A stretch of 64,000 nt of DNA from Planctomyces sp. SH-PL14 (lineage in GTDB: Bacteria; Planctomycetota; Planctomycetia; Planctomycetales; Planctomycetaceae). Shown piece after piece: positions 32,542-48,227 of this stretch (its first letter is position 1; each line of letters opens with the position of its first letter). A program made the position numbers and the translations under genes. The notes under the pieces are model-generated. The model ran no database searches. It was not told the origin of the DNA and worked only from the letters and a program-made list of their open reading frames with translations. The stretch is from positions 3,490,001-3,554,000 of the forward strand of contig NZ_CP011270.1 of the NCBI RefSeq assembly GCF_001610835.1, written 5' to 3'.

Positions 32542-32691
32542 GGTATGTATCTGCTCATTTGAACACGCACCCCAAACACGCGAATTGACGCTCCTGAAAT
32601 CGCAAACTATGTTCATCAGATGCGGCTTATGCGTTTGCCCCCTCCCCATTCCCACCTTGGGCGGCAAACACCTCCTTCGGAGAACCCCACC

Positions 32692-35574
32692 TTGGCGCCC
32701 ATCCGCCACGTTTTCCGCCGTCGCCTGCCCGCCCTGACCATCGCCCTGGCTCTCCTCAGCCTCGCCGCGCCGGTCTTCGCCCAGGCCACCCTCCACGAAC
32801 AGATCGACACGGCCCTCGCCGGAACCGCCACCGGCCCCGCGTCCCCGCTGGTCAGCGACCACGAGTACGTCCGCCGGATCTACCTCGACCTCACCGGCGT
32901 CCCCCCCACGCTCGACCAGACCAAGACCTTCGTCGCCGACCCCAACCCCGCCAAACGCACGGCGATCGTCGACCAGCTCCTCGCCGGCCCCGCCTTTCCC
33001 CGGCACATGGCCCAGGTTTTCGACGTCCTGCTCATGGAGCGGCGGGGCAACACCCACATCCCGCAGGACGACTGGCACGCCTACCTCTTCGAGTCTTTCA
33101 AGACCAACAAGCCGCTCCACCTCCTGGCCCGCGAAATCCTCTCGGCCGACGGAGCCACTCCCGCCCTCCGGGCCGCCGCACGGTTCTACCTCGACCGCAA
33201 AGGAGAACCGAACCTCCTGACACGCGACGTGAGCCGCATCTTCTTCGGCCGCGACCTCCAGTGCGCCCAGTGCCACGACCACCCGCTGATCGACGACTAC
33301 CACCAGCTCGACTACCAGAGCCTCCTGGCCTGCCTCAACCCCGGCGTCCTCGTGACGATCAAAGAGGGTGACAAATCGGTCGCCTACTACGGCGAACAGG
33401 CGGGACAGGAGTTCCAGTACGAGTCCGTCTTCATCAAGGGGACCAAGCACCTCGCCCGCCCCCGGCTCGTCCTCGGGCCGGCGATCGCCGACCCCGTCTT
33501 CCCGGTCGGCGAGGAGTACACGGTCCGCCCCGCCGACAACGTCCGGCCGGTCCCCAAGTTCAGCCTCCGGCAGCAGCTCGCGAACCTCGCCACCGACGGA
33601 ACCTACCGCCCCTTCAACGAGAACATGGCGAACCGCCTGTGGGCCCACATGATGGGACGGGGGCTCGTCCAGCCGGTCGACCTGCACCACTCGGACAACC
33701 CGCCGCTCCACCCGGAGCTGATGAAGCAGCTCGGCGAACGGCTGGCGGCGATGAACTTCGACACCCGGGCCTTCCTGCGGGAGCTCGCCCTGACCCAGGT
33801 CTACCAGCGCTCGCTCGACGTGACGGCGGACCTCCTGGCCGCCTCGACCGCGATGGCGCCGAAGGTCGCAGAGCTCGAAAGCACCGTCCAGGCCGCGAAA
33901 GCCGCGGAGTCCGCGGCGGACGCCGCCTATGAGAAAGCCCTCACGGAGCGGGACGCCGCCGAAGCGGCGCTCCTCCCGGTCGCGAACGAGCGGGAACAGG
34001 CGAAGGCCAAAGCCAAAGAGAGCCTCAAGAAGTTCGACGCCGCCCAGAAGGCGATGCAGGACGCCGAGGCCCAGGTCGCCGCCAAGCAGGGGGTGATCCA
34101 GTCGATCACCGATGCCGTGGTGAAGACCAAGGAGGTCGTCGCCAAGCTGCCGCAGGACCAGGAGCTGATCGCGGCCAATCAGAAGTTCATCGACCGGCTG
34201 ACCCAGGTCACGGCGGAGCTCCCGCCGCTCCAGAAGTCGGTCGAAGAGAAGACCGCCGCCATGCAGGCCCCGGCGGCGGAACTGACCACCGAGCGGACCG
34301 CGGTTGCCGCCGTCGACACCCGCCTCGCCCCGTCGCTGCAGGACCTCTCGGCCAAGGAGGTCACCCTCTACGCCGCCCGGCAGCAGCAGATCGCCGCCGC
34401 CACTTCGGCCGCGGCGCTGGAGCGGCAGCTCGGGACGGTGAAGTCGCTCGCCGGAATGAAACCCAAGGCCGACCAGGCAGTCGTTCTCGCCCAGTCGATC
34501 CCGCAGAAGGAAGCCGAGGTCCTCACGGCTCAGAAGACGGCCGACGAGTACGCCCCGACCGTCACGCAGCGGCAGGCGGAGGTCCAGGGGGCGGACCTGG
34601 TCGTCACGACGACCGGACAGGCCCTCGCCGTCTTGCAGGCGGAGCAGCAGAAGCAGACCGAGATCGCCTCGGCCGTTGCGCTGGCGGCAACGCAGGCGGA
34701 GGCGGCCCGGGTCAAGCTCTCGCAGGACCCCGTCCTGACCGAGGCGGCCCAGAAGCTCAAGGCCCGCTCCGACGAGCTCCAGCAGGGGCTTGCCGCGATC
34801 CAGACGCAGGTGCAGACAGCCCAGACGGCGCTCGCCAAAGCCCAGGAACAGAAGACGGCGGCCGAAGCGACTCTCAAGGGGGCCAACGATGAGATGGCCA
34901 AGCGTCAGCAGGCAACCGCCACCGCCCAGGGGGCCGTTACCGCCGCCAAGGCGGAAGCGGACCAGGCGCAGGCTGGACTCGCCGCACTTCGCACCGAGCT
35001 CGTCGACCGCTGGTCGAGCGACCTCACCGCCGCGCCGCTGAAGCCGCTCTCGCCGGAGCAGCTCTGCTGGAGCATCCTGCAGGTGACCGGCGTTTACGAC
35101 CGCTACTGGAAGACCGAGGAAGCGGAGCTGGCCAAGACCGCTCCCATGACCCCCGAAGCCCAGCAGGACCCGGCCCAGGTCCAGGCGCGGCAGATCGCGA
35201 TCGAGCAGCGGACGTGGGACAAGCTCAAGGGGACGGTCGGCTCGTTCGTCGCCGTCTACGGCGCCGCGGCGGGTCAGCCGCAGGGAGACTTCTTCGCCAC
35301 CGTCGACCAGGCCCTCTTCGCCGCCAACGCGGGCGTCGTCACGAGCTGGGTCTCGCCCGCGGGAGGCAACGTTACCGAGCGGATGATGAACCAGGCCGAT
35401 CCGGCGCAGGCCGCCAGCGACCTGTACCTGACGCTGCTCACCCGCGACCCGACTCCCGAAGAGATCCAGGACGTCACGAACTACCTCGCCCCCCGCGCGG
35501 CCGACAAAGCGGTCGCGGTTCAGGAACTCGCGTGGGCGATCCTCACGTCCGCCGAGTTCCGGTTCGGGCATTGA
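32692..35574 (+). CDS. DUF1549/DUF1553 protein with a long coiled-coil insertion
   Basis: A 960-residue secreted protein. TTG 32692 gives a clean signal peptide (RRRLPALTIALALLSLAAPV) with GGAG about 10 bases upstream; ATG 32620 would add 24 unlikely residues. DUF1549 follows (about 35-260: VRRIYLDLTGVPPT, KRTAIVDQLLAGPAFPRHMA, CAQCHDHPLIDDYHQLDY), then the start of DUF1553 (NRLWAHMMGRGLVQPVD, LTQVYQRS). Residues about 378-770 are Ala/Glu/Lys/Gln-rich coiled coil that splits DUF1553, which resumes at PLSPEQLCWSILQVTGVYDR and ends LYLTLLTRDPTPEEIQDVTN. Expected partner: the DUF1501 protein downstream. Confidence 0.88.
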   Translation: MAPIRHVFRRRLPALTIALALLSLAAPVFAQATLHEQIDTALAGTATGPASPLVSDHEYVRRIYLDLTGVPPTLDQTKTFVADPNPAKRTAIVDQLLAGPAFPRHMAQVFDVLLMERRGNTHIPQDDWHAYLFESFKTNKPLHLLAREILSADGATPALRAAARFYLDRKGEPNLLTRDVSRIFFGRDLQCAQCHDHPLIDDYHQLDYQSLLACLNPGVLVTIKEGDKSVAYYGEQAGQEFQYESVFIKGTKHLARPRLVLGPAIADPVFPVGEEYTVRPADNVRPVPKFSLRQQLANLATDGTYRPFNENMANRLWAHMMGRGLVQPVDLHHSDNPPLHPELMKQLGERLAAMNFDTRAFLRELALTQVYQRSLDVTADLLAASTAMAPKVAELESTVQAAKAAESAADAAYEKALTERDAAEAALLPVANEREQAKAKAKESLKKFDAAQKAMQDAEAQVAAKQGVIQSITDAVVKTKEVVAKLPQDQELIAANQKFIDRLTQVTAELPPLQKSVEEKTAAMQAPAAELTTERTAVAAVDTRLAPSLQDLSAKEVTLYAARQQQIAAATSAAALERQLGTVKSLAGMKPKADQAVVLAQSIPQKEAEVLTAQKTADEYAPTVTQRQAEVQGADLVVTTTGQALAVLQAEQQKQTEIASAVALAATQAEAARVKLSQDPVLTEAAQKLKARSDELQQGLAAIQTQVQTAQTALAKAQEQKTAAEATLKGANDEMAKRQQATATAQGAVTAAKAEADQAQAGLAALRTELVDRWSSDLTAAPLKPLSPEQLCWSILQVTGVYDRYWKTEEAELAKTAPMTPEAQQDPAQVQARQIAIEQRTWDKLKGTVGSFVAVYGAAAGQPQGDFFATVDQALFAANAGVVTSWVSPAGGNVTERMMNQADPAQAASDLYLTLLTRDPTPEEIQDVTNYLAPRAADKAVAVQELAWAILTSAEFRFGH

Positions 35575-35670
35575 GGGAAGTTGTTGTCAGTTGTCAGTCA
35601 TCCGTTGTTAGTGGTCAGTGATCAGGAACCATTCGTCGGTGCCGATTCGTTGTCAGCAGCGATTTGCCCC

Positions 35671-35899
35671 AGTCCCGACAGGGACGAAAGAAAATAGCCC
35701 ACCCTTTCAAGGGTGGGGATCAGAGCCCGAACTCAATCGAGTCCCGTCAGGGACGGCAGAACCTCCCGCGAAGTCCTTCAACGATTCAACACGAGACCGC
35801 CCGTCGGGTCTTTCGTCCCTGACGGGACTACCGAACGGAATCACGAAGCCCCGCCCCCGTTGAAACGGGGGGCGATTTTCGGTCGTCCCTGACGGGACT
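35671..35899. repeat. REP/BIME-like pair of inverted 85-bp units
   Basis: Four copies of the imperfect palindrome GTCCCGTCAGGGAC lie at 35671, 35740, 35814 and 35884. The first two face one way and enclose a hairpin CCACCCTTTCAAGGGTGG (35699-35716); the last two face the other way and enclose CCCCCGTTGAAACGGGGG (35854-35871). Each unit reads AGTCCCGNCAGGGACGANNG then AAAAT, followed by the hairpin with loop TTTCAA, so both stems differ in sequence yet stay paired. The cluster fills the gap between the DUF1549 and DUF1501 genes. Bases 35580-35625 before it are a GTCAG-rich low-complexity patch. Confidence 0.8.
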
Positions 35900-35935
35900 T
35901 CATACATCTCGCCCCATCCCTCCCCGAGACCTCCC

Positions 35936-37225
35936 ATGAAAGCTCACTACGCCTGCCAGTCCGATGAGCACCGTGTGGCGCGCCGCCAGTTCCTGGGGGA
36001 TCTCGTCGCCGGGACGTCGGCCGTCGTCGGGGGACTCGGTCTCCTGGCCCGTCCCGCCGCCGCGGAGCAGCTGGCGAAGGCCCAGAAGCGGATCCTCGTC
36101 GTCAACATGCACGGCGGGCTGAGCCAGCTCGAAAGCTGGGACCCCAAGCCGGGGGCCGACACCGGCGGGCCGTTCCGGGCCATCGCCACCTCGGTCCCAG
36201 GGATCCACATCAGCGAGCTGCTGCCGATGACCGCGCAGCAGATGCATCACATGTGTCTCATCCGCGGCGTCAACACCGCCGAGGACGACCACGGCAAGGG
36301 GGCCTACATGATGATGACGGGGCGACGTCAGTCCCCCGCCTCCGACTTCCCCCAGCTCGGCGCGGTCGCGGCCAAGGCCCTCTGCCCGGAAACGAGCTCG
36401 CTCCCCGGCCACATCGTGGTCACGCCGGGCGGCGGAGGAGGCCGCGGGAACGACTCCGCCTATCTCGGCCCCCGGTACTCAAGCATCGCGATGGGGAACG
36501 GCAACCCGCCGCAGAACACGACCCGCCCGGCCAACATTACCGACCAGATGGACGCGGCCCGCAACGACTTCCGCCGGAAGGTCAACGACCGGTTCCTGAA
36601 CCGCCGCCGCAGCGCCGTGACCGACGCCTACACCTACTCGTACGAGCAGGCCCAGCAGCTCATGGCGCAGCGGGAGGTGTTCGACGTCACGAAGGAGCCG
36701 GCCGAGGATGTCGAGCGGTACGGCAAGCACGACTTCGGCCGGCACTGCCTGCTCGCCCGCCGGCTCCTGGAGAAGGGGATCACCTTCGTCCAGGTCTCGC
36801 ACTCGAACTACGACTCGCACCACGAGAACTTCAACTTCCACATCGAGCAGCTCGGTGAATGGGACCGTTCCTTCGCCACGCTGATCGGGGACCTCGCCGC
36901 GCGGGGGATGCTCGACAGCACGCTCGTCGTCGTCCTCTCGGAGTTCGGCCGGACGCCGGGAATCAATCAGGCCTTCGGGCGGGACCACTGGTCAAAGGCG
37001 TGGTCGGTGGCTCTCGCCGGGACCGGGATCAAGCGGGGCTCGGTCTTCGGCAAGACGAACGCCAACGGCACGGAAGTCTCGGAGGGACAGGTCGATCACG
37101 GCCAGCTGTTCCACACCTACCTGCAGGCGTGCGGCGTCGACACGACCGGCTCCTTCGACATCAACGGCCGAGCGATGCCGATCGCCGATCCCGCCGTGCA
37201 GGTCATCAAGGACGTGCTGGCGTAA
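35936..37225 (+). CDS. DUF1501 family protein (Tat-exported)
   Basis: A 429-residue protein of the DUF1501 family, an alkaline-phosphatase-like/sulfatase-like fold. The twin-arginine signal is ARRQFLGDLVAGTSAVVGGL. Conserved segments are ILVVNMHGGLSQLESWDPKP, CLIRGVNTAEDDHGKGAYMM, LARRLLEKGITFVQVS, LIGDLAARGMLDSTLVVVLS followed by EFGRTPG, and GRDHWSKAWSVALAGTGIKR, which supply putative metal-binding D, E and H residues. DUF1501 genes normally pair with DUF1549/DUF1553 genes, as here. Their substrate is unproven. The WD40 gene follows after 65 bp. Confidence 0.92.
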   Translation: MKAHYACQSDEHRVARRQFLGDLVAGTSAVVGGLGLLARPAAAEQLAKAQKRILVVNMHGGLSQLESWDPKPGADTGGPFRAIATSVPGIHISELLPMTAQQMHHMCLIRGVNTAEDDHGKGAYMMMTGRRQSPASDFPQLGAVAAKALCPETSSLPGHIVVTPGGGGGRGNDSAYLGPRYSSIAMGNGNPPQNTTRPANITDQMDAARNDFRRKVNDRFLNRRRSAVTDAYTYSYEQAQQLMAQREVFDVTKEPAEDVERYGKHDFGRHCLLARRLLEKGITFVQVSHSNYDSHHENFNFHIEQLGEWDRSFATLIGDLAARGMLDSTLVVVLSEFGRTPGINQAFGRDHWSKAWSVALAGTGIKRGSVFGKTNANGTEVSEGQVDHGQLFHTYLQACGVDTTGSFDINGRAMPIADPAVQVIKDVLA

Positions 37226-37290
37226 AGCGATCCACCGGTCTCCAAACGGCCTTTCCCCACCTGGCCCCTGGCACCTAACCCCTCCCTCTC

Positions 37291-38310
37291 ATGCTCGACG
37301 TCAAACAAGCCCACGTCGCCACGCAGTTTGGACACGACCGGCCGATGATCGCGTGCCGGTTCGATCCGCTGGGGCGGTATGTCTTCGCCGGGGCGCAGGA
37401 TCACAACCTGATCCGGTTCACGCTCGGCGAGGCGGACGGCAAGAAGCAGCTCTTCGCCGGGGCTCACGAGTCGTGGGTCATGGCGATCGCCTTCTCCAAG
37501 GACGGCGGGCAGGTCATCTCCGGCGGCGGGGATGGCCGGATCGTGTGGTGGGAGACGGCGGCCACCGGGACGGAGGCCGCCGCGCCGAAGCCGCTCCGCA
37601 CGGTCGAGGCCCACAAGGGGTGGATCCGGGCGCTGGCGGTGAGTCCGGACGGGCAGTTCCTGGCGACGGGGGGGAACGACCTCGTCGTCCGGAGCTGGAA
37701 GATGGCGGACGGGACGCTGGTCCGTGAGCTGCCGGGGCATGAGAAGCACGTCTACTCGCTGGAGTTCCACCCGGGAGGGCAGTTCCTGCTGTCGGCGGAC
37801 CTGGCCTGTTATGTGAAGCAGTGGGATCTGGCGACGGGGCAGGCGGCGCGGACCTTTGATGGCAAGACGCTGCGGTATTACGACGCCGGGTTCCTGGCGG
37901 ATTACGGGGGGATTCGGGGGATGGCGGTCAGCGGGAACAGTGAGTTCCTGGTGGCGTGCGGACTGCATAAATGCACGAATGCGTTTGCCGGGGTGAATGA
38001 GCCGCACGCCATGCTGTTCCGCTGGGACAATCAGGAGGTGGTGCGGTCGTTCATTGCCGATGGGATTCCGAACGGTCTGCTGTGGCGGATCCGGTTCCTG
38101 TCAGACGGGACGGCGATGGCGGTGTCTGGCGGAGCGTCGGGGGGGCATCTGCTGTTCTGGAAGGCGGATGCGGACAAGGATTTTCATCGGTTGGGTCTGC
38201 CGGGTCTGGCGCGGGATCTGGACCTGCATCCGGATGGACTGCAGGTGGCGACGGCCCATTTCGACCATCAGATCCGCATCGTGAAGCTGATAGCCAAGGC
38301 GCCGGCATAA
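37291..38310 (+). CDS. WD40 repeat protein
   Basis: A 339-residue WD40 beta-propeller without a signal peptide. Blades are visible at HDRPMIACRFDPLGRYVFAG, AHESWVMAIAFSKDGGQVIS then GGGDGRIVWWE, AHKGWIRALAVSPDGQFLAT then GGNDLVVRSW, and HEKHVYSLEFHPGGQFLLSA then DLACYVKQWD, with two or three weaker ones to the C-terminus. It is probably a protein-interaction platform; the DUF1549-DUF1501-WD40 order suggests one functional group. R1 copy F begins 5 bp after its stop. Confidence 0.88.
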   Translation: MLDVKQAHVATQFGHDRPMIACRFDPLGRYVFAGAQDHNLIRFTLGEADGKKQLFAGAHESWVMAIAFSKDGGQVISGGGDGRIVWWETAATGTEAAAPKPLRTVEAHKGWIRALAVSPDGQFLATGGNDLVVRSWKMADGTLVRELPGHEKHVYSLEFHPGGQFLLSADLACYVKQWDLATGQAARTFDGKTLRYYDAGFLADYGGIRGMAVSGNSEFLVACGLHKCTNAFAGVNEPHAMLFRWDNQEVVRSFIADGIPNGLLWRIRFLSDGTAMAVSGGASGGHLLFWKADADKDFHRLGLPGLARDLDLHPDGLQVATAHFDHQIRIVKLIAKAPA

Positions 38311-38539: not shown

Positions 38540-41500
38540 TCAGGCTTGGCCTTTGCGACGGCTCGCCTTCTTGACAGCCTTCTTTGGCACGGCCTCCACC
38601 GGCGGCGGCGCCTCCACACTCACCACCGCACTCCGCGGCGTAATCCGATGAAACAACCGGTCCGCAATCTGCCGGACCGCCGCCGAATACTGCTCAATAT
38701 CCCGCCCCAGATCCTTCGTATCATTAAACAGCTTCATCCGCCGCACGAGGAACTCATACTCGTCCGACTCCGCCGACGGCACCGTCAGGTCCCGCGCATC
38801 CCCCCGCACAATCCGCAGCGCATCAATCAGCCGCCGAAGAAACCGATACGCATCGCGAAGCTCGATCCGCTCCGCCGTCGTCAAGATCCCCGCCTGCTCC
38901 AGCTCCTTCATCACCTCGCGGGTATTGGTCACCCGCAGGTTCGGAAACTCCGCGCCGTAAGTGATCTGCAGCCCCTGAACGAGATACTCGATATCCACCA
39001 GCCCCCCGGGACTGAGCTTGGCATTGAACGTCCCGGGAGTGACGTGCTGAGTAATCTGCTTCTGCCGCATGGCCCGCATCGCCGCCACATCGAACGGCGC
39101 ACCGGTGTAGATCAGCCGGTCGCGGACCGCCACAACCTGCTCCGCAAACTCCGGCGACCCGCCGATCGGCCGCAGCCGGACCAGCGCCTGCCGCTCGAAC
39201 GGCCACGCCGGCCCCGCCGGCCCAAAGTACCGCTCGAACGTCTCCACCGACACCGCCAGGCTCCCCGCGCGGCCATACGGACGCAGCCGCAGATCGATCT
39301 CGAAGATCCCCTGCCGACGCGCATCGATCGCCTTCCGGAACATGTCGATCAGCCGGTCAAAGAACTCCGTGTTGCCGGTCGGACTCGCTCCGTCGGTCTG
39401 CCCGTCGTGCTCATACAGGAACAGCAGCTCGATGTCGGAAGCGAACCCCAGCTCCCGCCCGCCACACTTCCCGAGCGCACAGACACAGAACCGGCACTCC
39501 TCCCCCCCCGCAGTCCGCGGCAGACCATGCGCGGCAGTCAGCTCCTCGAGCGAGATCCGGACCGCCGCGTTCACGACCGTTTCGGCGATGTCGGTCAGCT
39601 CGCGGGAGAACAGCGCAAAGTGCGGCTGGGCGTTCGTGATGTGCCGCAGGTCGACCCGCAGCATCTCGCGGTCCTTGAACAGATTCAGCGCCGCCCGCCG
39701 GGCCTCGAAGGTCTCCGCCGCCGCCAGCTGCGCGTCGAGCTCGCGAGTGAGGTCATCGAGCGTCTTCCGCTGCTTGAGAGCGGTCACGTCGGTGACGACC
39801 GGGAACAGGTTCCGGTGCTGGAGCTTGAGAAAGTCGGCCCAAAGGAACTCGCTCATCCCCATCAGCCGCGAGAGCGTCTCCAGCACCTCCGGCTGGTGGA
39901 GTGAAGCGAGCGAATCGAGCCAGTCGGGCTGTTCGAAGAGCTGCGCCAGGAACTCCCGGAAGTGCAGGAGGGCGGTCTCGGGATTGGGGCACTGCGGCAG
40001 CAGGTGCGTGAAGTGCTTGATGAGCACCACCGCCGCCCGCAGCTCGTTGATCCGCTTGAAGTCGAGGATCTTCTGCCCGTGGCGGTCCGTCACGTAGAGC
40101 GTGTCGTGGATCTGGTTCCGCTGCGACTGGATGATGACCTTCTGGATCGAGATCTCGGTCAGCGCCAGCGCGTTCGTCAGCTCGTAGAGGAAGCCCGGCG
40201 TATCCTCTGCCCGGATGTGGAGGACGGTCGCGTCGGGGGCGGCGTTGTTGTCGATCGTGATGCTGACCGGCAGCAGCGTCCGGCCGTCGACCCCCGCCGG
40301 ATCGATCGACTGCGCCACGCGGCGGGCCAGCCGCGCCGGGATGTCCTGGGCATGCTCCCCCCGCATCCGCTGCAGAAGATCCTGCAGCTCCTGCTCATAG
40401 CGTGTCCAGATCTCCGGCGGCGGGTTCGGGTTCGAGGGCCGGACCAGGAAGACGTTGATGAACTTCCGCCGCCGCCGGACGGTCGGAGGCATGCCGGGGC
40501 TGCTCATGAGCCGCTCGGGAATCTCGGCCCCGGTCAGGACGAAGCCCGACTGGATGTCGATCCCGTGGACCACCATCAGCCCGCACATGACCGACAGCTC
40601 CCCGAGCTGGTCGTACCCCACGAGCGTCAGCTCCCACAGCCCCTCGGTTCGGGGGGTGGCGCGGACCCGGACGATCCGGTCGTCCCTCAGCTCCTGGAGC
40701 ATCTCCAGGTGCCGCCGGGTCTGCTCCGGCGAATAGACGTCCTGATAGGAGGCGGCCGCGTCCCCCAGATGCAGGTTCACCGAAGCCGGCACGTTCCGGA
40801 CCGGCGAGGCCGTCGCCTCCTTCCGGTCGAGGATGTACTTCTCGAAGATCCCGCGGATCGCCCGGCAGTGCCCTTCGAAGTGCTGCAGGAACCCCGCCGC
40901 GCCGGCGAAGTCGAGCCGGCCCGCCAGATAGGCCAGCTCGCGGGGATTGTCCGGGAGTGCGTGCTCCGCCTGGTTGTGCAGGAGCTGCAGGGCATGCTCG
41001 ACCGTCCGCAGGAAGACGTACCCGCCGGAGAGCTGCCGGTATTCGTCGGCCTGGATGAAGTCGAACTCCGCCAGCCGGATCAGCCCGTCGAGCGTCCCCT
41101 TGCTGCGGAGGCGGCGTTCCCGGCCGCCGTAGGCGAGCTGCAGGTACTGGGTCAGGAACTCGACGTCGCGGATGCTCCCCTTCCCCCCTTTGACCTGCCC
41201 CCACAGCCGGCCGCTCCGTTCCAGCGCGGTCTCGATCCCCGCCTTCATGTCCCGGACGCTCTCGCGGACCTCGTCGGGCTCCACGTCGAAGATGATGTCG
41301 TCGATCTTGTTGAGGGCCTTGTAGCCCAGCATCAGGTTCCCGGCGATGGGCCGCGCCTTGAGCAGCGCCTGCTTCTCCCAGAGCTGCCCGTTCTTCTTGA
41401 GGTAGTCGAGGTACGACGCGACCGTGCAGACGAGCGGGCCGGACTTCCCCCACGGCCGCAGCCGCATGTCGACGCGGTACATGAACCCGAGGGCCGTCGC

Positions 41501-42331
41501 CTCGGTCATGGCCCGGATCAGCTTCTGCCCGATCCCCCAGTACCGCTCCGCCTCCTTCTCGCACAGGAAGACGAAGTCGAGGTCCGAGCTGTAGTTCAGC
41601 TCCTCGCCCCCGAGCTTGCCGAACGCCAGGACGACGAAGTCCTCCGCCGCGATCCCGGTCTCCTTGCGGATGAACCCCAGGCAGACCTGCGTCATCGCGT
41701 CCGCCAGCAGGGCAAGCTGCAGCGTGACCGCCTTGAGGTCCATCAGGCCGAAGGTGTCGCAGGCGGCCAGCCGCAGCGTCTCCCACTGCTGGAACCGCCG
41801 GACCGCCATCAGCCGCTCGTCGTAGGTCCCGCACGGCTCGGCCGCCTTCCTGGCCTCTTCGGCAAAGCGCTCGCGGCTCTTGATCTCCGGCAGCCGCTGG
41901 TGCTGCGTCAGCCGGTCGAGGTAGCCGGGGTTCCGCAGCAGGATCTCGGTCAGGAACTGGCTCCCGACGAACAGCTTCACCAGGATCTCGACCGACCGCG
42001 GCTGGTCCGCCAGCTTGCGGTAGAGCGCCAGCCGGTCCGGCTCCTGGAAGACGAACCGCTCGAAGTTGATGAGCGAACTGTCGGCCGAGGCGGCGTCGGT
42101 GAAGGCGTAGAGCAGCGGCAGGAGCAGGCGGACGAACTCCCCCCGCTCGTTCTCCCCGGCGGCGAGTTTGCGGAGCCGCCGCAGCGCCTGCGGAGGCTGC
42201 TCGAACCCGACCGGCGCCAGGAAGGCGAGCGCCTCCTCGTCGGACATCCCGTCGCCGCCCCCCCCGCCCCCGTCGGCGACGAACCGCTGCAGGGCGTCTT
42301 CGGCGAACAGCGGACGATCGGACGAAGGCAT
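38540..42331 (-). CDS. glnE: Glutamine synthetase adenylyltransferase/deadenylylase with ACT-like inserts
   Basis: A 1263-residue protein; typical GlnE has about 950. GlnE attaches and removes AMP on glutamine synthetase. The first nucleotidyltransferase half has AFGKLGGEELNYSSDLDFVF (236-255, aspartates 250 and 252) and RVDMRLRPWGKSGPL. The second has GKCGGRELGFASDIELLFLY (954-973) and EIDLRLRPYGRAG; here the second metal-ligand position is E968, not Asp. Between them two ACT-like segments occur: ELTLVGYDQLGELSVMCGLM (567-586) and VLHIRAEDTPGFLYELTNAL (703-722) with IHDTLYVTDRHGQKILD, like the C-terminus of GlnD. This suggests built-in glutamine sensing. Lys/Arg-rich tail. Convergent with the WD40 gene. 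Confidence 0.9.
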   Translation of the reverse strand: MPSSDRPLFAEDALQRFVADGGGGGGDGMSDEEALAFLAPVGFEQPPQALRRLRKLAAGENERGEFVRLLLPLLYAFTDAASADSSLINFERFVFQEPDRLALYRKLADQPRSVEILVKLFVGSQFLTEILLRNPGYLDRLTQHQRLPEIKSRERFAEEARKAAEPCGTYDERLMAVRRFQQWETLRLAACDTFGLMDLKAVTLQLALLADAMTQVCLGFIRKETGIAAEDFVVLAFGKLGGEELNYSSDLDFVFLCEKEAERYWGIGQKLIRAMTEATALGFMYRVDMRLRPWGKSGPLVCTVASYLDYLKKNGQLWEKQALLKARPIAGNLMLGYKALNKIDDIIFDVEPDEVRESVRDMKAGIETALERSGRLWGQVKGGKGSIRDVEFLTQYLQLAYGGRERRLRSKGTLDGLIRLAEFDFIQADEYRQLSGGYVFLRTVEHALQLLHNQAEHALPDNPRELAYLAGRLDFAGAAGFLQHFEGHCRAIRGIFEKYILDRKEATASPVRNVPASVNLHLGDAAASYQDVYSPEQTRRHLEMLQELRDDRIVRVRATPRTEGLWELTLVGYDQLGELSVMCGLMVVHGIDIQSGFVLTGAEIPERLMSSPGMPPTVRRRRKFINVFLVRPSNPNPPPEIWTRYEQELQDLLQRMRGEHAQDIPARLARRVAQSIDPAGVDGRTLLPVSITIDNNAAPDATVLHIRAEDTPGFLYELTNALALTEISIQKVIIQSQRNQIHDTLYVTDRHGQKILDFKRINELRAAVVLIKHFTHLLPQCPNPETALLHFREFLAQLFEQPDWLDSLASLHQPEVLETLSRLMGMSEFLWADFLKLQHRNLFPVVTDVTALKQRKTLDDLTRELDAQLAAAETFEARRAALNLFKDREMLRVDLRHITNAQPHFALFSRELTDIAETVVNAAVRISLEELTAAHGLPRTAGGEECRFCVCALGKCGGRELGFASDIELLFLYEHDGQTDGASPTGNTEFFDRLIDMFRKAIDARRQGIFEIDLRLRPYGRAGSLAVSVETFERYFGPAGPAWPFERQALVRLRPIGGSPEFAEQVVAVRDRLIYTGAPFDVAAMRAMRQKQITQHVTPGTFNAKLSPGGLVDIEYLVQGLQITYGAEFPNLRVTNTREVMKELEQAGILTTAERIELRDAYRFLRRLIDALRIVRGDARDLTVPSAESDEYEFLVRRMKLFNDTKDLGRDIEQYSAAVRQIADRLFHRITPRSAVVSVEAPPPVEAVPKKAVKKASRRKGQA

Positions 42332-42587: not shown

Positions 42588-43232
42588 GTGTCGCGTAAGA
42601 CGTTGGCCGCGCTCGCGCTGGTCGCATTCGGATTCACTGCCCCCGTGACGGTCCCGGCGGCGGACAAGGTCGAAGAGGGCTTCAAGGTGATCTTCGACGG
42701 CAAGAGCCTCGACGGCTGGAAGATCAACGAGAAGAAGGAGACCTGGACCCTCAAGGACGGCATGCTGATCGCCAAGGGGGACCGAAGCCACATCTTCTAC
42801 GTCGGCGACGACAAGCCGTTCAAGAACTTCGAGCTCAAGGTCGACTGCAAGGCCGAGAACAACAGCAACGGCGGGATCTACTTCCACACGAAGTTCCAGG
42901 AAGAGGGCTGGCCGAAGTACGGCTTCGAGGCCCAGGTCAACAACTCCTACAACTCCGATCCGCGGAAGTCCGGAAGCCTCTACGCCGTCTCCGATGTCAA
43001 GGAGCAGCACATTCCGGACGGCGAGTGGTGGACCGAGACGATCACCGTCAAGGACAAGCACGTCACGATCAAGCTCAACGACAAGGTCGTGGTCGACTAC
43101 GAAGAGCCGGCCGACAAGGTCGCGGGGAACGACTTCACCCGCAAGATCGACAGCGGCACCTTCGCCCTCCAGGGGCACGATCCCGGCAGCACCGTGTACT
43201 ACAAGAACATCCGCGTGAAGCGGCTGGACTAG
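42588..43232 (+). CDS. DUF1080 (3-keto-disaccharide hydrolase-like) secreted protein
   Basis: A 214-residue protein with a signal peptide ([20 protein letters not shown]). [54 protein letters not shown] and a closing [13 protein letters not shown] are the DUF1080 signature, a concanavalin-like beta-sandwich. Members include 3-keto-disaccharide hydrolases, and the family is greatly expanded in this phylum. The GTG start at 42588 follows AGAAAGCAGGTGTCTC. It is the only gene of its kind in the window and appears monocistronic. Confidence 0.92.
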
Positions 43233-46760: not shown

Positions 46761-48227
46761 CTACTTCCCTGTTCCCGACTTCATGACGACGTCGAACTGA
46801 GGATTGGCCCCCTCGACGACGTCGAACGTGTTCTTCGATTCGCGGCCCCAGGCGGTCGGGACCTTGTTCTTCCCCTTTTCGTCCATCATCGGCTGGACCG
46901 AGACCCGGTTCGTCCCCAGGAACGTGCCGGACACGGTGTCGACGTAGGTCAGCGAATAACGCCCGTCGGCGTCCGTGAGCCCCGTCGCGGTCCGCAGGGG
47001 CAGCCCCCGGGAGACCTTATCCCGCTTGTACTCCCGCTTCTCCGGAGCAAAGTAGACCGTCGCCCCCGACACTGGCTTTCCATCCAGCGTCACAACGCCG
47101 CTCACCTGCCCCAGCGGCGGGACTTCGAGCTTCGGCTGGTTGAGGTACCAGTAAAGTCCTGTGCTGAACCCGAGGGACACTACGAGGAGCGACCACCGCC
47201 GCCAGCCGACGGCCCGGATCGCCTTGCGGATGTCGATCGGCTCGCGCTTCGCCTCCTGCGGCAGCTTGACCATCGTCGGCTGCGCGGAGGGCATGTCGGC
47301 CAGATTGGGATCGGCGACGACCGCCGGTGCGACGGCCGCCAGCGTGGCGCCAGCGGCGGCCGCGGCAGCCGACGCGGGAGGAGCGGTCGAGGCCCTGGTC
47401 CCCCACCGCCGCGGAGCCGGGGGAGCGCCGGGACCGGGAGGTCCCTTGGGAGCTTCCGGCGGGGGAGCCTCCGCCTTGGCCTTCTCGGCCATCAGGAAGT
47501 CCGCGGGATCGAAGTTGGGATCCCCCTCCGGAGCCGGTACGGCGGCCGCGGGGGCTTCCGCAACGGCCGCGACAGCAGGATCCGATTTCTTGGCGGCCGG
47601 GGCGCTCTTGGCCGGAGAGGGGGCGGGGACGGCGGCCTTCTTCGGCTTCCCCTCCATCAGGAAGTCGGCGGGGTCGAAGTCGGCCTTCTTCTCCGCCGCG
47701 GGGGCGGCCGCCGCAGTTCCGGCCGGTGCGGCTGCCGCTGCCGCAGGTTTGGCCGCGGGCTTCTTGGGGCCGTCTCCCATGAGGACGTCGGTCGGATCGA
47801 AGTCCTCGTTCTTCTTCTCCGGTGCCGCGGCCTTCGCCGGCGCCTTCTTGGGGCCGCCGGCCATCAGAACGTCCGTCGGATCGAACTCATCCGCCGGAGG
47901 CTTGGGGGGCGCCGCGGCAGCGGGAGCTGCGGCCGGAGCGCTCGCGACCGGAGTCGCCGTCGACGGAGCCGGCGGAGCTTCCGGCCCCTTGGCGGCCGCC
48001 GCGGCCGGAGCCGATGCCGCCGCAACAACCGGGACCGCGCCCGATGTCCCCACATCGTCCGGCCTGGAGATGATGTTCGGCTGAGAGTCGCTCGTCGACG
48101 CCGCCGTCGACGGGCTGGGGACGATGAACTTCGTCTTGCAGGTCGGGCACTTGTTCGGCGTCCCCGCCAGATCATCGTTGATCTTCAGGAGCTGACCGCA
48201 TTTGACGCAGTTGTATCGAATGGTCAT
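46761..48227 (-). CDS. Zinc-ribbon, FDPxD-repeat membrane protein with carboxypeptidase-regulatory-like domain
   Basis: A 488-residue mosaic protein. The N-terminal zinc ribbon uses C7, C10, C27 and C30 (NCVKCGQLL, NKCPTCKTKF). A long Ala/Pro/Lys region (about 45-290) carries four copies of FDP[TA]D[VF]LM, spaced irregularly with GPKKA or KPKKA following three of them. A membrane helix follows (WSLLVVSLGFSTGLYWYL, about 330-347), then an extracytoplasmic domain GQVSGVVTLDGKPVSGATVY and TGLTDADGRYSLTYVDTVSG, the carboxypeptidase-regulatory-like fold. This suggests a cytoplasmic zinc domain linked across the membrane to an outer binding domain. No enzyme domain is present. Confidence 0.8.
   Translation of the reverse strand: MTIRYNCVKCGQLLKINDDLAGTPNKCPTCKTKFIVPSPSTAASTSDSQPNIISRPDDVGTSGAVPVVAAASAPAAAAAKGPEAPPAPSTATPVASAPAAAPAAAAPPKPPADEFDPTDVLMAGGPKKAPAKAAAPEKKNEDFDPTDVLMGDGPKKPAAKPAAAAAAPAGTAAAAPAAEKKADFDPADFLMEGKPKKAAVPAPSPAKSAPAAKKSDPAVAAVAEAPAAAVPAPEGDPNFDPADFLMAEKAKAEAPPPEAPKGPPGPGAPPAPRRWGTRASTAPPASAAAAAAGATLAAVAPAVVADPNLADMPSAQPTMVKLPQEAKREPIDIRKAIRAVGWRRWSLLVVSLGFSTGLYWYLNQPKLEVPPLGQVSGVVTLDGKPVSGATVYFAPEKREYKRDKVSRGLPLRTATGLTDADGRYSLTYVDTVSGTFLGTNRVSVQPMMDEKGKNKVPTAWGRESKNTFDVVEGANPQFDVVMKSGTGK

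Follow-up and report, generated by a model that had tools for sequence, protein, structure and literature searches.

The window analysed here, a 64,000-nucleotide stretch of the genome of Planctomyces sp. SH-PL14 (NZ_CP011270.1, positions 3,490,001 to 3,554,000), encodes on its minus strand a GlnE, the glutamine synthetase adenylyltransferase/deadenylylase, that carries a tandem ACT region at residues ~515-780. The evidence below confirms this assignment. We further propose, with a probability of about 0.65, that this enzyme (hereafter ACT-GlnE) senses glutamine directly through its built-in tandem ACT sensor, which is of the type found in GlnD, the PII uridylyltransferase/uridylyl-removing enzyme (TIGR01693). 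The GlnD-PII-GlnE double cascade acting on glutamine synthetase (GS) is a classic case of covalent enzyme regulation. If the proposal is correct, a GlnE with a GlnD-kind sensor would shorten this cascade to one protein, and would explain how GS could still be modified in bacteria where GlnD, and often PII, is not found. The open reading frame (ORF), read directly from the window, encodes 1263 aa; homologues align only from residue ~29-36, and translation may thus begin at M29 instead of M1. The parts of the gene are as follows.

38540..42331, minus strand: ACT-containing GlnE, whole ORF including stop, 1263 aa (true start maybe M29)
40832..42226, minus strand: N-terminal half, residues 36-500, deadenylylase-type nucleotidyltransferase (PF03710/PF08335; tree; 1v4a match)
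41576..41584, minus strand: N-half catalytic D250-x-D252, with third acid D288; invariant in 68/68 full-length sequences
40364..40636, minus strand: ACT domain 1, residues 566-656, with preceding helices from ~516 (hhalign to GlnD; structural model; GlnD HMMs)
39992..40228, minus strand: ACT domain 2, residues 702-780 (PF24931/PF01842; hhalign; structural model)
38654..39979, minus strand: C-terminal half, residues 785-1226, adenylylase-type, separate lineage (PF03710/PF08335; tree; 3k7d match)
39428..39436, minus strand: C-half catalytic D966-x-E968, with third acid D1013; invariant in 68/68 full-length sequences

As in E. coli GlnE (b3053; PF03710 twice; 1v4a, 3k7d), two homologous nucleotidyltransferase halves follow each other in the same order, acids occupy the catalytic positions, and the genome encodes a GS with the target tyrosine. 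Pfam GlnE (PF03710) and GlnD_UR_UTase (PF08335) each match the protein twice, and in both halves the GlnE nucleotidyltransferase domain precedes a helical GlnD_UR_UTase domain. NCBIfam names it an ordinary GlnE (PRK11072, 496.8 bits, cut-off 487), an annotation in which the sensor does not show. The best fold matches of a full-length model (pLDDT 84.9, pTM 0.57) are the E. coli GlnE halves 1v4a and 3k7d. An alignment of 68 full-length ACT-GlnE sequences has D250, D252 and D288 of the N-half, and D966, E968 and D1013 of the C-half, unchanged in all 68. Unlike E. coli GlnE, the protein has an ACT pair between the halves, a C-half of its own clade with D-x-E, and 317 additional residues. The GlnE motif G-x11-D-x-D is present in the N-half and absent from the C-half; its second Asp occurs in the aligned C-halves of E. 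coli GlnE and two ordinary planctomycete GlnE. The Glu in the C-half D-x-E may still serve catalysis, and a functional C-half is compatible with it.

An initial annotation, made by a model from the sequence alone, had put the excess over the usual GlnE at about 300 residues. This agrees with the 317 residues by which the protein exceeds E. coli GlnE (946 aa); the excess over ordinary planctomycete GlnE is smaller, ~130-220 residues. In other planctomycete families ordinary GlnE measures 1046-1136 aa from stop to stop (14 uncut ORFs among loci L125-L139; L130 is cut by a contig end), and no ORF aligning to the ACT segment was found at these loci. The segment is therefore not the normal GlnE linker of related families.

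The ACT pair is homologous to the tandem ACT region of GlnD. Positions 628-844 of the GlnD model TIGR01693 align with residues 526-767 of the window protein, whose score by this full-length model is 98.6 bits (cut-off 519.4). When isolated (residues 500-800, from 64 of the 68 full-length sequences; L054, L076, L082 and L113 were omitted for long insertions), the segment matches GlnD models in 64/64 members (E <=0.001), and its closest NCBIfam models are all GlnD. It also matches ACT_ACR9_3rd in 62/64 and ACT in 50/64 members (E <=0.01). A further alignment (A3) comprises 62 of the 68 sequences, omitting the same four and also L099 and L106. Comparison by hhalign of the segment profile with a GlnD C-terminus profile (13 sequences, 12 planctomycete and one from a Chloroflexota genome) gave a probability of 99.6% and an E value of 9.5e-24, collinear over 224 columns that take in both ACT domains and the preceding helices. 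The arrangement differs from that of GlnD in that no HD domain model matches the window protein in a Pfam scan, the nucleotidyltransferase halves are those of GlnE, and the ACT pair lies mid-protein rather than at the C-terminus. In a tree of the ACT region, ACT-GlnE and standalone forms (see below) make up one side of a branch with support 99 and 14/14 GlnD the other; some branches of this tree are long, and two of the long ones join. A recent local fusion with the organism's own GlnD is, on account of this branch, not favoured.

Within the window protein, ACT_ACR9_3rd matches residues 690-766 (28.0 bits, cut-off 27) and Pfam ACT matches residues 703-751 below its cut-off (21.7 bits, cut-off 27). 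The first ACT domain has no Pfam ACT model match; its assignment comes from the GlnD profiles, hhalign and the predicted b-a-b-b-a fold at 566-656. AlphaFold2 modelled the segment with a mean pLDDT of 91.6 as two b-a-b-b-a units, at 566-656 and 702-780. The initial annotation had pointed to ACT-like segments at 567-600 and 703-770 and suggested HMM searches and structure prediction. Both bear it out: the HMMs find the two catalytic halves and the second ACT domain, the first being reached among them by the GlnD models, and HMMs, profile comparison and predicted fold together place ACT domains within 560-780. G577, D710 and G713 are invariant in full-length members and D574 is conserved in >=90%; these four residues presumably sit in the ligand loop of ACT domains. 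Full-length members combine the two features by which we recognise an ACT sensor, the b-a-b-b-a fold and the conserved loop Asp/Gly.

That the protein is an ordinary GlnE with a long meaningless linker, ACT-like by chance, could be argued from the fact that just one Pfam ACT model exceeds its cut-off in this protein, with a margin of 1 bit. However, the profile-profile match over 224 columns, the 64/64 GlnD-model matches, the confidently predicted ACT topology and the retention of the segment across phyla leave this explanation with next to no probability; we regard an ordinary long linker as ruled out by the hhalign result, the segment model and the GlnD-model matches.

In structural searches, the segment model matches proteins with paired ACT domains. 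Foldseek ranks the 180-kDa glutamate dehydrogenase first (E 6.7e-6), and VIA-align gives Z scores of 10.0 for aspartate kinase, 7.6-8.6 for threonine deaminase, <=7.8 for the 180-kDa glutamate dehydrogenase and <=7.0 for CASTOR1. Non-ACT folds such as BirA and the carboxysome shell protein CsoS1D also appear in these lists with middling scores. Since most Z scores are middling and non-ACT folds stand below them, the ACT assignment rests mainly on sequence profiles and predicted topology. Threonine deaminase, aspartate kinase and the 180-kDa glutamate dehydrogenase likewise hold ACT folds within one chain; unlike the window protein, these ACT-regulated enzymes have other catalytic partners, and identity is ~10-15%.

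ACT-GlnE is universal in the sampled genomes of the window's own family, 37/37 of which (its own included) have a match covering the ACT segment, divided in one genome (G012) between two contigs. At the 30 loci of this family that were fetched, a single open frame of 1202-1336 aa holds the match. Among the matches listed for 22 genomes of other families in the same class, three (G039, G041, G052) have the ACT pair with the C-half only, 18 have matches of the canonical kind (14 seen as ORFs) and one has none. In a phylum sample of 392 genomes, 35 match at E <=1e-70, 28 of them from the window's own family and seven from six other families; one of these seven (G413) covers the N-half only and may be canonical, and 337 genomes without a match were not itemised. 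The initial suggestion that the architecture may be common in this phylum thus holds for the family and not phylum-wide (35/392, mostly own family).

Beyond Planctomycetota, many Chloroflexota genomes encode ACT-GlnE, as do some from KSB1, Calditrichota and Acidobacteriota. When GTDB species genomes were scanned, at least 250 stretches proved to encode a relative of the segment (E <=1e-3), a threshold at which GlnD may be among them. The best 80 of these stretches form our set of loci: 43 from Chloroflexota, 30 from Planctomycetota, two each from Calditrichota and KSB1, one from Acidobacteriota and two from an unnamed phylum. At 67 of them a single ORF exceeds 1150 aa, and 12 of the remaining 13 lie at a contig end. 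In a sample of 151 Chloroflexota genomes, five match at E <=1e-25, a threshold under which canonical GlnE could fall; all five matches cover the ACT segment. Two of the five represent half forms, and one of these two is located at the end of a contig. Viral origin was rejected, the viral contigs scanned having yielded no relative.

The C-half behind the ACT pair is, judged from alignment and tree, a lineage of its own with D-x-E. A tree of halves was built from 72 rows, leaving out those of L139 and the partial one of L123 (quick method, SH-aLRT only, unrooted). In it, ACT-linked C-halves and six standalone forms make up one side of a branch with support 100, separated from canonical C-halves as well as from canonical and ACT-GlnE N-halves. 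The N-half of ACT-GlnE groups with canonical N-halves (support 92), canonical C-halves group with a support of only 68, and the C-halves of ACT-GlnE in the window's domain order form one clade (support 99). As the tree is unrooted, the ACT-linked lineage could either be a sister group of canonical C-halves that evolved fast or have an older origin.

Standalone ACT-ACT-C ORFs of 770-882 aa were found at L121, L122, L215, L217 and probably L218, whose residues 1-400, with no Pfam match, look like open frame upstream of the true start; the ACT-ACT-C forms L123 and L216 are cut by contig ends. Among the matches listed, G052 (the genome of L122) has no further GlnE match, and G039 has an ordinary GlnE besides its form with the ACT pair and C-half. 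At L219 (G380) the order is swapped within one ORF. The ACT pair of the standalone and swapped forms is assigned by alignment with the window segment, and all six aligned standalone forms and L219 keep D-x-E.

L121, 5077-7389: standalone ACT-ACT-adenylylase ORF without deadenylylase half
L122, 5309-7618: standalone ACT-ACT-adenylylase ORF without deadenylylase half
L215, 2215-4620: standalone ACT-ACT-adenylylase ORF without deadenylylase half
L217, 3484-6129: standalone ACT-ACT-adenylylase ORF without deadenylylase half
L219, 294-4136, minus strand: ACT-ACT-C-half followed by N-half, one 1281-aa ORF

The C-half of L219 clusters with the standalone forms (support 100). This may point to two separate fusions with an N-half, but is also compatible with a single fused ancestor that underwent rearrangement and loss. 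At slightly under even odds, we tentatively suggest that the separate ACT-ACT-adenylylase lineage is a one-protein glutamine sensor and effector that works without GlnD and often without PII. In this view, the module can serve by itself as an adenylylator, and two or more fusions, with opposite domain orders, linked it to a deadenylylase half.

Genome context strengthens the case for direct glutamine sensing. Within the fetched stretches (mean 11-15 kb), glnA is present at 21/49 loci outside Planctomycetota: 18/43 in Chloroflexota, 2/2 in KSB1, 1/1 in Acidobacteriota, 0/2 in Calditrichota and 0/1 in the unnamed phylum (L083, the other unnamed locus, groups with Planctomycetota in the tree of halves and was omitted). 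The standalone L215 adjoins glnA, and an ammonium transporter gene lies in the stretch at 6/43 Chloroflexota loci. We searched for GlnD and PII in the genomes of 42 of the 80 loci, six from Planctomycetota and 36 from elsewhere. GlnD scores over its cut-off in five of the 42, all Planctomycetota (G061 is the planctomycete without it), and in none of the 36 others. The remaining GlnD-model matches in non-planctomycete carriers are ACT-GlnE itself or, mostly, shorter frames matching the middle of the model, which we take for HD-domain proteins. PII is over its cut-off in 23/42 carriers, namely 6/6 planctomycetes (in one case through a match of 42 bits within a frame of 674 aa) and 17/36 others, ten of which score >=60 bits; 14/42 carrier genomes, none of them planctomycete, have no PII match whatever. 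In the Chloroflexota carriers L146-L151, where GlnD does not exceed its cut-off, PII keeps the Tyr at position 51 of the T-loop. In Anaerolinea thermolimosa (L091), glnE has amt and glnA nearby, GlnD is likewise not over its cut-off, and PII gives only two matches, of 26-30 bits.

The presumed substrate is also in place. In 22/22 genomes aligned (21 of the 42 carriers and the window's own), a type-I GS has Tyr at the position of E. coli Tyr397; some additional GS paralogues in these genomes have Phe or Gly there. The window's own genome has one ACT-GlnE and three GS-family genes:

G000:C1:822639, 2347824 and 4961237: a type I gene carrying the adenylylation tyrosine motif, a divergent gene and a short gene

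The look-up of glnD and glnB suggested by the initial annotation found one separate full GlnD and two PII genes, both with the T-loop tyrosine; a longer frame gives a third PII match, which is weaker. We read the gene beside the two PII genes as an ammonium transporter.

The separate C-half clade and its D-x-E motif could alternatively mean that the ACT-ACT-C unit, fused to a deadenylylase half, is a nucleotidyltransferase that uses a different nucleotide or modifies a different target (PII or another enzyme, for example), and the unit does occur without an N-half in the same ORF, in G039 alongside an ordinary GlnE elsewhere. However, the adenylylation domain of E. coli (3k7d) is among the matches of the full-length model, glnA lies near 21/49 non-planctomycete loci and beside the standalone L215, and GS retains its target tyrosine. 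With no PII match in 14/42 carriers, PII is ruled out as a general target. We consider this alternative quite improbable.

For a GlnE that senses glutamine itself, the following mechanism can be outlined. According to a recent review (PMC12409994), the C-terminal domain of E. coli GlnE adds AMP and the N-terminal domain removes it, with PII and PII-UMP setting the balance. By homology, the window protein would act on its own GS in the same way. The ACT pair lies directly before the adenylylating half and accompanies that half in the standalone forms, so it most likely controls adenylylation. Glutamine governs the ACT pair of GlnD, and is most likely the ligand bound by this related pair. High glutamine would favour the C-half, which would transfer AMP onto the GS tyrosine and lower GS activity, and low glutamine would favour the N-half, which would remove AMP from GS. 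Of this scheme we infer the ligand, the direction of the response and its independence from PII. In the window's own organism, with GlnD and two PII genes, the ACT pair would provide a second, direct glutamine input beside that of PII; in the Chloroflexota, KSB1, Calditrichota and Acidobacteriota carriers, where GlnD was not found and PII often was not, it could be the main or only one. The pair marks out, within a GlnE, a candidate glutamine site of known position that can be mutated.

Several points weigh against direct glutamine sensing. Glutamine acts on E. coli GlnE, which has no ACT domain, and ACT domains bind many amino acids and in some cases none. Of the standalone and swapped forms, 5/8 (L121, L215, L217, L218, L219) have Ala or Met in place of the ACT2 loop glycine, and Pfam ACT matches only one of the six such proteins scanned (L215). 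Domain orientation in the full-length model is unreliable (pTM 0.57). No glnA lies near ACT-GlnE at any of the 30 planctomycete loci, and the window's own family retains GlnD and PII. GlnD is rare across Chloroflexota (over the cut-off in 1/151 genomes, with one more below), so its absence there is a phylum trait rather than a loss tied to ACT-GlnE. The carrier genomes are mostly metagenome assemblies of unstated completeness, which makes the absences soft.

The ACT pair might instead sense another amino acid, or mainly hold subunits, PII or GS together, leaving the glutamine response no more direct than in ordinary GlnE. The variety of ACT ligands, the fold matches to aspartate kinase, threonine deaminase and CASTOR1, an arginine sensor, the PII and GlnD in the window's own genome and the changed ACT2 glycine of 5/8 standalone or swapped forms all fit this possibility. 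Against it stand the exclusively GlnD identity of the closest NCBIfam models, the strong GlnD profile match, the conserved ACT loop residues of full-length members, and the retention of the enzyme by carriers without a GlnD match, about half of them without PII and often with glnA nearby. On balance we judge it unlikely, and prefer direct glutamine sensing by the GlnD-type ACT pair.

Domain databases may well already show this arrangement. Among 5.39 million open-access papers we found none pairing GlnE with an ACT domain, although subscription work could be missed, and did not find the meaning of the arrangement, its spread or its occurrence in genomes without a GlnD match described.

The remaining observations concern the neighbours of the GlnE gene in the window. 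On its 3' side and on the opposite strand (32620-38310, plus strand) lie DUF1549/DUF1553, DUF1501 and WD40 genes, and no nitrogen genes were found among these scanned neighbours. A gene of the 3-keto-disaccharide hydrolase family (42588-43232, plus strand) is divergent from the GlnE gene. Further away (46764-48227, minus strand), a protein with no Pfam match over the cut-off contains an Ala/Pro-rich stretch in which an FDP(T/A)D(V/F)LM-like motif occurs four times, at intervals.

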